Positions 13,960 to 27,910 of a DNA stretch of 30,814 nt are shown here, one piece after another; the stretch's first letter is position 1; every line of letters begins with the position of its first letter. Under the pieces are notes generated by a model. The model was given only the letters and a program-made list of their open reading frames with translations, searched no databases and was not told the origin of the DNA. The position numbers and the translations under genes were made by a program. Source of the stretch: a virus; the IMG/VR virus record IMGVR_UViG_3300007735_000596, positions 1 to 30,814 of that record. One strand, written 5' to 3'.

Positions 13960-14127
13960 ATGAGTAAAGCCCAGATCAGCGCCCTTTCAGGCGTTGTAGT
14001 TGCAGTCGTGTCAGTTCTTGTCAGCCGGGGTGTTCTCGGTGGCGAAACTGCAACTGATGTGCAGTCGATTGTGACAGCGCTAATCGCGTTTGGTGCCACT
14101 GTTGGCATCAGGAGCGCTCGCCCGTAA
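13960..14127 (+). CDS. Holin (small, hydrophobic)
   Basis: 55 aa, reading MSKAQISALSGVVV onward. Two hydrophobic stretches, about 8-22 (LSGVVVAVVSVLVS) and 35-50 (SIVTALIAFGATVGI), are separated by a short polar turn with GGETATD, and the end is basic (RSARP). Size and place after the endolysin fit a small class II-type holin that permeabilises the membrane. AGGAG at 13948-13952, overlapping the endolysin stop, gives a spacing of seven to ATG 13960. It is the last gene before the terminator at 14157. Confidence 0.75.
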   Translation: MSKAQISALSGVVVAVVSVLVSRGVLGGETATDVQSIVTALIAFGATVGIRSARP

Positions 14128-14156
14128 GACGGCCTAATCAAGTTTGCAGGCCGCAG

Positions 14157-14187
14157 GCCCCTCGCCCACACGGGCGGGGGGCTTCTT
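14157..14187 (+). terminator. Rho-independent terminator of the late operon
   Basis: An 11-bp GC-rich stem, GCCCCTCGCCC (14157-14167) with GGGCGGGGGGC (14172-14182) and an ACAC loop, has one G-T pair and is followed by TTCTTC. It lies 30 bases after the holin stop and likely ends structural and lysis transcription. Confidence 0.85.
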
Positions 14188-14452: not shown

Positions 14453-14484
14453 TTCCGTCCGGGCATGGTCTCACGCTTAAAGTG
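14453..14484 (+). promoter_or_regulatory. Shared upstream motif, copy A
   Basis: TTCCGTCCG at 14453-14461 and CTTAAAGTG at 14476-14484. The second element contains the GTG start of the next gene. The same two elements in the same order occur at 27276 and 27293, and the first alone (as GATTCCGTCCGG) at 16850. All three copies lie in gaps before + strand genes, which suggests a phage-specific control element. Confidence 0.4.
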
Positions 14485-16851: not shown

Positions 16852-16860
16852 TTCCGTCCG
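16852..16860 (+). promoter_or_regulatory. Shared upstream motif, copy B, in the repressor/early gap
   Basis: TTCCGTCCG within GATTCCGTCCGG, identical over 12 bases to the copy at 14451-14462. It lies in the divergent region between repressor and the gene at 16921. Next to it, CAACGGTGCAATGGTGCC has half-site-like symmetry with the CACCGTACC near 16771, so repressor operators may be here. This is inference from position. Confidence 0.4.
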
Positions 16861-16920: not shown

Positions 16921-17085
16921 ATGAGCACAGTATGTGCAGCAGCAACACAACACGAGGACATTGGCGGGCTTCTGATCCTGCTCCTAGGCGTAGTGCTCTA
17001 CGCGGGAACACTCCTACGGGACTACATCAGCGACGTTCGGTACTACCGCGCTCGCAAGATTGTCCGTGAGCGGAGGGCTGGCTAG
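16921..17085 (+). CDS. Small membrane protein, first gene of the early operon
   Basis: 54 aa. A hydrophobic helix at about 15-31 (GGLLILLLGVVLYAGTLL) is followed by a basic tail with YYRARKIVRERRAG, so it should span the membrane once with the tail inside. It is the first + strand gene opposite the repressor. GGGGG precedes ATG 16921. No family is recognised; small early membrane proteins in phages often affect superinfection or host physiology, but nothing in the sequence decides this. Its stop overlaps the next start. Confidence 0.7.
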   Translation: MSTVCAAATQHEDIGGLLILLLGVVLYAGTLLRDYISDVRYYRARKIVRERRAG

Positions 17086-24767: not shown

Positions 24768-26228
24768 CTAGTGTGGACTGTCAGGCCACTTGAAAGAGCG
24801 GAGCGGCCTTCGTTTGCCTTTACGCGGGACGCTATCGGGGAGTTCTCCAGTCCAGAGAACATGAGCACGGTCGTCAATGGGAGCGCGGCCGCGTCTAATC
24901 ATCACTGCGTCGATCGTGCTGCCTAGCAAGATGCGCAATTCGTCTGTCTCCAGATCTCCGAGTTCGTCAGCAACAAGCAAGTCCATGTCAGCTGAAACAA
25001 CTCCTTTAACGCGTGCGAGCTCAATGGAAATCTCGTCAATGCGATCAGACCTTGCTCGTAGACCAGCTGCAAACTCGTCAACACTTAACGCGTCAGCAAT
25101 TCGCTGGTCTCGAAAGACCTCAAGCTCAAATGATGCTTGCTCAAGCTCATTCTCAAGCTCGGTGACGCGCTCGCCGATGTGCCTGCCCTGGGCGTGGAAG
25201 TCAATGCCCTTCAAACGAGTCTCTAGCTGGCGCACCAACCAAGGTTCAATCACCCAACCGGCAACCGATGCTGGTGCTGTGCATTGTCCTGATGCGTATT
25301 CAACGCGACAACGGTATGTCCTCATTCGACGACCTTTGTGCTCGCCAGATACGCGCTTCATTGAGTCAGGGCGCATGATGTGTTGGCATCCAGCACATCG
25401 GATTAGCCCAGCGAGTAGGGCTGGCGAGTTACTTCGCGCGGGAGTTGGTTTGCGCTGATGGTTAGCTTGCTGCCAAAGAGATGGGCTGACGATTGGCGTG
25501 TGTGCCGCCATGTTCACGAACTCACCGCTTCGCGCTTCGCCCTTGTACACAGGGTTGCGAATTACATTGACGACATTCTGGACGATCCAGTTAACTTCGC
25601 CATACGGCCCTGGCACGCTCAGACGCGTCAAGTGTTCGCCGATTATGCGCCAATGCACGCCTGCGGCAGCTTGCTCAAATGCTTGGCGAATAGCTGGGGC
25701 ATGAATTGGGTCAGGTTCAAGCACTCGGTCAGCGTTGCGGCGATAGCCAGCTGGTATCGCACTGCTGATGTGTATTCCACGCGCAACTGCACGCTGCCGA
25801 GCGTCGCGCCAACTATCTCTGATGCGGTCGAGCTCAAACTCCGCGAGTACGAGCATCAAGCGTTGCATCATCTTTCCAGCGGGAGTGGTGCTGTCGATTC
25901 CTTCAGCGACGCTAACGAATTCCGCGCCAACATCTTCAAGCTCGCGAATAAGCTCAAGTGCGCCAACAAGACTTCTAGCGAACCGGTCAATCTTGGCAAC
26001 AACAATGCCATTGGATTGCCCTTCGCGACAGCGTTCCATTGCAGAGTTAAGCCCTGGGCGTTTCGTCTTACCGCCAGATTGGTCAAAGTCTTCGTGCCAA
26101 GCCTCGATGACATTGCCGGTAGAAATTGCCCACGCGTTAATGCGCTCGCGTTGAACATCTGGGCTGATGAAGCTATCGCCAGCGCGTCCCCCAACGCGAC
26201 TGACACGAATGTATCCGTCGTAACCCAT
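24768..26228 (-). CDS. int: Large serine recombinase (integrase)
   Basis: 486 aa. The resolvase domain (1-150) contains GYIRVSR with Arg8 and nucleophile Ser10, and IDRFARSLVGALELI with Arg82 and Arg85. The recombinase domain follows (GYRRNADRVLEPDPIHAPAI, NPVYKGEARSG), then a zinc ribbon with Cys278, Cys281, Cys307 and Cys316. A coiled coil (ERVTELENELEQASFELEVF) is inserted near 350-380, the feature that controls integration versus excision. It would catalyse attP x attB recombination without host factors. It is one of only two clearly coding minus-strand genes. The start ATG at 26226-26228 has no clear ribosome binding site. Confidence 0.95.
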   Translation of the reverse strand: MGYDGYIRVSRVGGRAGDSFISPDVQRERINAWAISTGNVIEAWHEDFDQSGGKTKRPGLNSAMERCREGQSNGIVVAKIDRFARSLVGALELIRELEDVGAEFVSVAEGIDSTTPAGKMMQRLMLVLAEFELDRIRDSWRDARQRAVARGIHISSAIPAGYRRNADRVLEPDPIHAPAIRQAFEQAAAGVHWRIIGEHLTRLSVPGPYGEVNWIVQNVVNVIRNPVYKGEARSGEFVNMAAHTPIVSPSLWQQANHQRKPTPARSNSPALLAGLIRCAGCQHIMRPDSMKRVSGEHKGRRMRTYRCRVEYASGQCTAPASVAGWVIEPWLVRQLETRLKGIDFHAQGRHIGERVTELENELEQASFELEVFRDQRIADALSVDEFAAGLRARSDRIDEISIELARVKGVVSADMDLLVADELGDLETDELRILLGSTIDAVMIRRGRAPIDDRAHVLWTGELPDSVPRKGKRRPLRSFKWPDSPH

Positions 26229-26276: not shown

Positions 26277-26804
26277 ATGGTATTGGACAGGGCAGAACGC
26301 TTTAGCGAAGCGCCTACGGTTGATTATGCAGGTTTCGAGCAGCGCCTAGACAAGCTCATGGTCAGGCTCCTGTTGGAGCTTGCAACGATCAGTCAGGTCA
26401 AAGCAGCGCCAACGAATGTGCAGGCAGCTGACGCGAACGCGTTGCGCCTGCCAATTAGCGCCCAGGGCAAAGCACTAACGGAAGACCCGGTGGGGTTGCT
26501 TGCAGCGGATTACAAGCGCGCAGCGCACATTGCCGATAGGGGCAAGCGGGTCAGCGCGAAGGTTCATGTTGCGACGCGCGCTCAAGTTGAGATCAAGGCG
26601 TGCAAGTTCAGCCGGAGAAGCACGCCCGACCTTGGGACGCAGGACGGTCGCCTCATGGTTGCCCGGTATGCACGCGAGCACGGTACGCGCAGGGCAGCCG
26701 AGGCCTACTGCGTTGATCCATCAGACAGCAAGTCAATTAAGCGAATGCAGCGCAATATTCAGCGTTACTTGCAGGAGCTTCAGCGAGTGGAGGCCATGCG
26801 ATGA
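26277..26804 (+). CDS. Putative DNA-binding protein divergent from integrase
   Basis: 175 aa, not assigned to a family. The N-terminal half is helical (FEQRLDKLMVRLLLELATIS) with an Ala/Gln-rich linker. The C-terminal part, DGRLMVARYAREHGTRRAAE followed by DSKSIKRMQRNIQRYLQEL, reads like a helix-turn-helix region. It starts 48 bases from the integrase start on the other strand, so the two share a control region. GGAGG at 26261-26265 is 11 bases before ATG 26277, somewhat far. It may regulate integrase or the cassette that follows. Confidence 0.65.
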   Translation: MVLDRAERFSEAPTVDYAGFEQRLDKLMVRLLLELATISQVKAAPTNVQAADANALRLPISAQGKALTEDPVGLLAADYKRAAHIADRGKRVSAKVHVATRAQVEIKACKFSRRSTPDLGTQDGRLMVARYAREHGTRRAAEAYCVDPSDSKSIKRMQRNIQRYLQELQRVEAMR

Positions 26805-27274
26805 AAACCCGCAAACGACAAACAGCCAAGATCGTGGCCTGCCTACTGATCGTCCTCGCGCTCGATCTCGTCTGCGTTAAAGCAGCGAACGCGCAGCTGG
26901 GCCGCATCCCAGAAGCAAGCAAGTACGCGCTCAAGGTTAGAACAGCCAGCGTGGGCTCTAAATGGGATGGGCCGTTGAGCACTTACACGGGTGGCAGCTA
27001 CCTGTCAGGGCACATCAACGCCCTATGGCCGAGTGCGCCCAGGGGCAAGCGCAGGCAGATCGTCCTCGGTGCAGCCCTTCACCATCATGTTCCATTCAGA
27101 CTCTTGCTTGGCATCTGGGGTGCAGAGTCAGGCTTTGGACGGTACGCATGTCACTTTGGACTGACTGGCTTCTATCGCAGTGGCACTAGTGGAAACTTCC
27201 GCAAGGACGCGCACATTGCCGCCGATCTCCTCGACCGCTTATACCGGAGTAGGTATAAACGGCGCGCAATTTAG
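26801..27274 (+). CDS. Secreted lysozyme/transglycosylase-like protein
   Basis: 157 aa with an N-terminal signal peptide: basic start (MKTRKRQTAK), hydrophobic core IVACLLIVLALDLVCV, and likely cleavage after AANA at residue 31. The mature part has ALHHHVPFRLLLGIWGAESG, then GRYACHFGLTGFYRSG, the pattern of SLT/glucosaminidase-type domains with catalytic Glu109. It would act outside the membrane on peptidoglycan. The place next to integrase, away from lysis genes, suggests a lysogeny-expressed or entry-related function instead of normal host lysis. It overlaps the gene upstream by four bases. Confidence 0.75.
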   Translation: MKTRKRQTAKIVACLLIVLALDLVCVKAANAQLGRIPEASKYALKVRTASVGSKWDGPLSTYTGGSYLSGHINALWPSAPRGKRRQIVLGAALHHHVPFRLLLGIWGAESGFGRYACHFGLTGFYRSGTSGNFRKDAHIAADLLDRLYRSRYKRRAI

Positions 27275-27301
27275 GTTCCGTCCGCTCTAAGTCTTAAAGT
27301 G
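27231..27301 (+). promoter_or_regulatory. Possible promoter plus shared motif, copy C
   Basis: TCGACC (27231-27236), 17 bases, TATAAA (27254-27259) forms a plausible sigma70-type promoter inside the end of the lysozyme-like gene. It is followed by TTCCGTCCG (27276-27284) and CTTAAAGTG (27293-27301), the same pair of elements as at 14453 and 14476. Transcription from here would produce the structured leader before the Cys-rich gene. Confidence 0.4.
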
Positions 27302-27305
27302 CGTC

Positions 27306-27414
27306 ACTGACTGTATGTTGCTCCCGGAGCAACTGCGGTCAGTTTGCGTTCTGGCCCCCGTATCAACGCGCACCCACATCAGTTGGGTGAAGCCAAACAA
27401 GTCTGGGGGCCAAG
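27306..27414 (+). promoter_or_regulatory. Structured mRNA leader that hides a ribosome binding site
   Basis: First hairpin: ACTGAC (27306-27311) pairs with GTCAGT (27338-27343), enclosing a perfect GTTGCTCC-C-GGAGCAAC dyad (27317-27333). Second structure: TGGCCCCC (27352-27359) pairs with GGGGGCCA (27405-27412), enclosing a CACCCA/TGGGTG hairpin (27371-27376 with 27384-27389). The GGGGG at 27405-27409 is also the ribosome binding site for ATG 27415, so this stem would block translation until opened. The inner dyad could instead be a protein operator. Structures are read by eye, not folded. Confidence 0.55.
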
Positions 27415-27612
27415 ATGCAATGCAAATGCCGACAGTGCTACGGCCTGCACGAATACCTTGCAGAGCGCAACCGGCCTTCATCAGCCCTCGTTGAGCCAAT
27501 GCCAGGGCACGCTATTGGCAAGCTCCAATCGTGCGATGGCTCTTACACATGCCGCTGCGCTGACTGCGTTGAGATCCTGAACCGCAGACTACGAAGGCGC
27601 GGAAAGCGATAA
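27415..27612 (+). CDS. Cys-rich mini-protein (putative zinc binding)
   Basis: 65 aa with seven cysteines: Cys3, Cys5, Cys8, then Cys40, Cys46, Cys48 and Cys51. The CxCxxC plus CxCxxC layout suggests one or two zinc sites, with a basic tail (NRRLRRRGKR) that could bind nucleic acid. No signal peptide. Its start codon lies directly behind a stem that covers the ribosome binding site, so expression is likely controlled at translation. No family is recognised. Confidence 0.6.
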   Translation: MQCKCRQCYGLHEYLAERNRPSSALVEPMPGHAIGKLQSCDGSYTCRCADCVEILNRRLRRRGKR

Positions 27613-27616
27613 CCAC

Positions 27617-27910
27617 TTGTCCAATGACAACTCGGGGCAAAGCATTTACGACCTTGCCCTTGAGCGTGTCAACCGGGGCATAGCAGTCGCCATAGTTCCC
27701 ACTGAGACACAAGACGGTGAGCTCGCAGGCGTTTATGCGCTGACAGTTGACTTGAGTGTCCGTGACGATCTTCGCAGCGCGTTCTACGAGCAGAGCGCAG
27801 CGAGCAGGGCGGGCAGTGCCATTGGCCTCTTGTTCGTTGCCAAGTCTTCCTGTGAGGACGCTGGCCTCAATTTGCGTCGTGTTCCACATCTTCACTCAGC
27901 AGACGAGTGA
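27617..27910 (+). CDS. Hypothetical protein of the integrase-side cassette
   Basis: 97 aa from TTG 27617, with no ATG in frame nearby and only a weak ribosome binding site, so the start is uncertain. A helical start (IYDLALERVNRGIAVAIVPT) is followed by a beta-like GVYALTVDLSVRDDLRSAF and a helical end. Not recognised. It follows the Cys-rich gene by four bases and may be co-expressed. Confidence 0.55.
   Translation: MSNDNSGQSIYDLALERVNRGIAVAIVPTETQDGELAGVYALTVDLSVRDDLRSAFYEQSAASRAGSAIGLLFVAKSSCEDAGLNLRRVPHLHSADE

Follow-up and report, generated by a model that had tools for sequence, protein, structure and literature searches.

The locus and its genes

The window, by which the whole stretch of DNA that was analysed is meant (a virus record of 30,814 bases), belongs to a temperate phage, and the element described here lies in a gap of 140 bases between the genes of two small proteins, p157 and the cysteine-rich p65. 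The genes of this neighbourhood are the following:

24768-26228, minus strand: serine integrase gene
26801-27274: p157, a 157-aa gene, upstream of the gap before p65
27415-27612, plus strand: p65, a 65-aa Cys-rich protein
27617-27910, plus strand: p97, the next gene, which starts 4 nt past p65

The leader of p65 heads a run of structural genes, the operon continuing with genes for the tail fibre and for packaging, and p97 is possibly coupled translationally to p65. An earlier note on this DNA, made from the sequence alone, had placed the leader's gene next to the integrase, and the two do share a neighbourhood, but they are not directly adjacent, as the integrase gene lies about 1.1 kb from the leader with two genes in between. 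No match to p157 was found in Pfam or PHROGs; a weak similarity to lytic transglycosylases of the MltB type can be seen. Elsewhere in the window, the gene at 13960-14127 is closely followed by a GC-rich hairpin of very high stability that carries a T-rich tail (14156-14183); it has the look of an ordinary intrinsic terminator that closes a gene block.

For p65, a family search returned no match and none was found in the PDB either, and its structure prediction, with a pLDDT of 47, is too poor for a fold search. That p65 may be a zinc protein, as the earlier note suggested, is read only from its seven conserved cysteines.

The predicted fold of the leader

The leader folds into two hairpins in tandem, the second of which encloses a third:

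27307-27342, plus strand: hairpin H1, whose stem has two levels and, on the 5' side, a single bulged base, in MFE and centroid folds
27317-27336, plus strand: top of H1 plus TGC, 20 nt, a candidate recognition site, the same in both phages compared below (alignments)
27344-27363, plus strand: 5' arm of helix P2 (folds)
27368-27393, plus strand: small hairpin P3, enclosed by P2 (folds)
27401-27420, plus strand: 3' arm of P2, which holds the ribosome binding site and the start codon (folds)
27405-27409, plus strand: GGGGG ribosome binding site, read from the sequence and fully paired in P2

The upstream two-level dyad that had been noticed before is present as H1, where 27307-27315 pair with 27334-27342 and 27317-27323 with 27327-27333, and also the downstream stem was described correctly: TGGCCCCC (27352-27359) pairs with GGGGGCCA (27405-27412), the second strand containing the GGGGG, but the helix is longer than had been stated, as it extends across the ATG (27344-27350 with 27414-27420). 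Two structures had indeed been recognised; they are not nested in each other, however, H1 and P2 being arranged in tandem and only P3 being nested, in P2.

The fold that the earlier note had proposed to compute, that of 27260-27430, confirmed the predicted structure at -72.1 kcal/mol (z -4.79), and the shorter segment 27307-27435 reached -58.2 (z -4.96), in each case with none of 200 dinucleotide shuffles being equally good. In a scan of 1536 windows of 120 nt over both strands, the leader region ranks among the ten with the lowest z-scores, the very lowest lying elsewhere. The predicted cost of opening the p65 start region, 21 kcal/mol, is the highest among about 50 starts of the genome, a list in which a few positions were guessed and may be wrong, the next value being 14.8. 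When the start region was kept fixed and the leader was shuffled, no more than 0-1 of 1000 shuffles buried the start equally well.

The leader occurs once in the window, and no intrinsic terminator was called on the plus strand at this place. Its complement was sought elsewhere in the genome and, except for one 12-mer, no long match was found, which is why no antisense partner is apparent. The leader is a real element that probably has a function.

A related phage keeps the genes and the leader

One relative was found, the contig IMGVR_UViG_3300032246_001409 (L002/L087; the whole record is G702), in which the gene order is kept: a 175-aa gene, a 157-aa gene, the leader, the Cys-rich gene, p97, p113, fibre, HNH and terminase. 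Between the two phages the terminases are 82-83% identical, p113 79% and p157 71%, p97 and p65 only 38% and 37%, and all seven cysteines of p65 are kept. Protein scans with p65, p97, p157, TerL and p113 led to the L002 contig and to one distant terminase only, and p157 had no match in phages, plasmids and about 1,390 bacterial genomes, mainly of actinobacterial groups. A 17-mer core matched three stretches in viral contigs and 80 in genome contigs; the matches outside the L002 contig have none of the neighbouring genes and were rejected as relatives. The closest named terminase is that of Pontimonas phage phiPsal1 (29% identical), and the annotated gene list of this phage contains no obvious counterpart of the leader region.

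As read from its sequence, L002 carries the end of a tyrosine-type integrase ahead of the region (1-218), whereas the integrase of the window is a serine integrase. The integration module has thus been swapped while the neighbouring genes and the leader were kept, and the leader is therefore independent of the integrase type, for which reason the idea that it might be an attachment site was dropped.

From the matching start, L002 folds as H1-P2[P3] as well (z -2.95, two of 200 shuffles equally good), with these counterparts:

1448-1479 of L002: H1 (fold)
1503-1523 of L002: P3 (fold)
1531-1549 of L002: 3' arm of P2 (fold)

In both phages the start site is buried in a stable leader helix, and in L002 the start codon is 0.2% unpaired. 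As MAFFT misaligned P2, the start codon and H1 served as anchors for comparing the pairs. In this pair-list comparison, all eight pairs in which both bases have changed still pair: three in H1 (C-G to G-C, A-U to G-C and G-C to A-U), four in the start-codon part of P2 (at -1, +1, +4 and +5 of the start codon) and one in P3, while L002 lacks the three outermost pairs. The chance of such conserved pairing was estimated at 1.1-2.2% for P2, i.e. for the start-covering helix and the ribosome-site pairing, and at 5.9% for the outer arm of H1. The compensatory changes in both arms that had been named as a test are thus present in a relative that keeps a start-hiding leader; as only two sequences (n=2) can be compared, this covariation is supportive of the fold, not conclusive. 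The opening cost in L002, 10.8, lies modestly above that of its neighbours (7.5-9.6) and of shuffled leaders, 55-81 of 1000 of which reach this value. Read-through transcripts of L002 (1428-1495) can also fold otherwise, the 5' arm of P2 then pairing with the promoter region, and this alternative fold, which was not seen in the window, holds the start region less tightly.

Of the hairpins of the leader, H1 is the better conserved one, and its apex, GTTGCTCCCGGAGCAACTGC, does not differ at all between the two phages, while its base does. Since the apex is invariant and the base has changed, H1 resembles an operator hairpin that is recognised by a protein, although as a hint at protein binding this is only suggestive. 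The leader includes GTTGCTCCCGGAGCAAC, a perfect 17-bp palindrome (8+1+8) that is the same in both phages, and such a palindrome just downstream of a promoter could also be a DNA operator for a repressor, in which case the RNA fold would be incidental. For DNA binding, though, it would be needless that the flanks vary in a paired way and that the bulge is kept on the same side, and at the repressor region a second copy of GTTGCTCCCGGAGCAAC was sought and not found, so that this explanation is highly improbable.

Upstream elements and the predicted start of the transcript

Ahead of the leader lies a short motif, TTCCGTCCG, that recurs in two other control regions, as had been noticed before:

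14453-14461, plus strand: second TTCCGTCCG site, 31 nt ahead of a phosphoesterase-like gene that starts with GTG
16852-16860, plus strand: third TTCCGTCCG site, flanked by a repressor-like gene on the minus strand and by the early gene that starts at 16921
27276-27284, plus strand: TTCCGTCCG, exact copy, probably a promoter element or an operator for the leader transcript
27295-27300, plus strand: TAAAGT, a possible -10 box read from the sequence

These three exact copies, all on the plus strand, compare with 0.18 expected in the window, and G702 carries the motif at the three syntenic places, which is consistent with a promoter or operator that is shared by both phages. The three rightward control regions probably form one regulon, with TTCCGTCCG as promoter element or operator. 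L002 has CATAGT at the distance that matches TAAAGT. A scan for the sigma-70 consensus, which covers promoters of this type only, called no promoter upstream of the leader; of the possible promoter proposed earlier, what holds is a promoter-like region with a shared motif just upstream. At the 14453 site, a start codon with no evident ribosome binding site follows the motif at a distance of 31 or 32 bases, which suggests that the mRNA of the region 14453-14484 is leaderless.

As the spacing from TTCCGTCCG would be the same as at the 14453 site, the leader transcript can be expected to start at about 27307, at the foot of H1. This predicted start places H1 at the extreme 5' end of the mRNA in both phages, and together with its better conservation this would fit a terminal hairpin that stabilises the mRNA, P2 merely setting a constant low level of p65 without any switch. 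Such a role would leave unexplained why the H1 apex is identical base by base and why the start-codon helix is kept up with changed letters, and it is considered unlikely. The leader might also act on transcription, as an antitermination RNA of the put type or as an attenuator at the head of the operon, and two adjacent strong stem-loops that directly follow a promoter-like site and precede a run of structural genes would suit this; H1 of L002 is not followed by a U-run, however, the plus strand has no called intrinsic terminator here, and it is specifically at the start codon that pairing is kept, all of which makes the idea very unlikely. Finally, expression could be timed by transcript length as in gene e of T4, long transcripts being silent and a later internal promoter producing short, open mRNAs, a mechanism known to operate in T4 e and I-TevI (PMC3014915). 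In both phages, though, the sole promoter-like motif lies upstream of the entire structure, and the scan, which covers sigma-70-type promoters, found none on the plus strand within the leader; this reading is considered very unlikely.

A model for the control of p65

It is fairly likely that the leader is a start-hiding control that keeps p65 off by default and that is opened or controlled via a factor that recognises H1, or by a nuclease. The segment 27307-27414 would form the 5' leader of a transcript that runs rightward, with p65 and p97 as its first genes, and would fold while being synthesised, H1 forming first at the 5' end and P2 then pairing the ribosome binding site and the start codon of p65. 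Because P2 pairs both, translation of p65 would be off by default, and by coupling perhaps that of p97 too. Translation is then probably opened, or controlled further, either by nuclease processing of the helices or in trans by a factor to which the invariant top of H1 serves as recognition site; this factor would most likely be an RNA-binding protein, with p65 itself as one candidate.

With respect to the trigger, for which the earlier note had named ligand, protein or temperature, temperature is unlikely, as in silico the start codon of either phage is still paired at 55 C (7.6% unpaired in the window, 5.2% in L002), and nothing speaks for a ligand, a search of the leader against Rfam 15 having given no match at the gathering score. 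An autogenous switch, in which p65 binds the H1 apex on its own mRNA and thereby opens or locks P2, is quite unlikely, but would, if true, represent a translation circuit of a zinc protein and a hairpin like that of Mu com/mom, but self-acting.

To call the leader a new regulatory system would be an overstatement, since phages are known to hide a start in a helix of the leader, as in T4 e, soc and 49 and in Mu mom. To our knowledge, RNA regulation has not been described in the phage group of the window and L002. If the start-hiding model is true, the leader is an unlisted phage RNA element that controls a small zinc-type protein and that has been conserved although the two phages differ in their integrase type. 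With about 110 nt the leader is compact and testable, and together with the TTCCGTCCG sites it begins to show how genes are controlled in a group of uncultured phages.

Comparison with known systems

The put RNA of phage HK022 consists of two neighbouring stem-loops near a promoter, and RNA of this type contacts RNA polymerase and suppresses downstream termination. The likeness is limited to the layout of tandem hairpins near a promoter, whereas the conserved feature here is the pairing of the start codon. Among actinobacterial phages, the SAS/ESAS elements of Cluster K mycobacteriophages are likewise inverted repeats that immediately precede translation starts, but the SAS is a 13-bp repeat, GGGATAGGAGCCC, with 11-19 copies per genome (PMC3203893), and the leader has a single copy. 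Since the SAS repeat is absent from the window (no match when up to 2 mismatches are allowed), an identity of the leader with the Cluster K ESAS was excluded.

More similar are systems in which a hairpin or a start-hiding helix acts on translation. In the autogenous gene 43 operators of T4 and RB69, the top of the hairpin is identical and the base varies between the relatives (PMC3014915), and the leader shares with them a hairpin upstream of the start with an invariant top and a varying base; the regulator of gene 43, however, is the DNA polymerase and its operator overlaps the ribosome site. In the T4 genes e, soc, 49 and I-TevI, the Shine-Dalgarno sequence and/or the start codon is buried in a leader helix (PMC3014915), as seems to be the case here, but gene e yields open transcripts from a late promoter within the helix, for which the sigma-70-type scan found no equivalent in the leader, and the leader has an additional conserved hairpin upstream.

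In com/mom of phage Mu, a hairpin that is recognised by a protein stands beside a translation inhibition structure that hides the start site, and the operon also encodes a small zinc protein (PMC6483171). The likeness to the leader, known here from the sequence alone, thus comprises a hairpin beside a start-hiding structure as well as the gene of a small Cys-rich protein. In Mu, however, the hidden gene is mom, on which Com acts, whereas here the Cys-rich gene itself is hidden, and p65 differs from Com in its CxCxxC pattern; no Com-type zinc-ribbon model of Pfam matched p65 of either phage at E up to 5. On the features tested, the leader falls outside the com/mom family, and it would work like the cases known from T4 and Mu.
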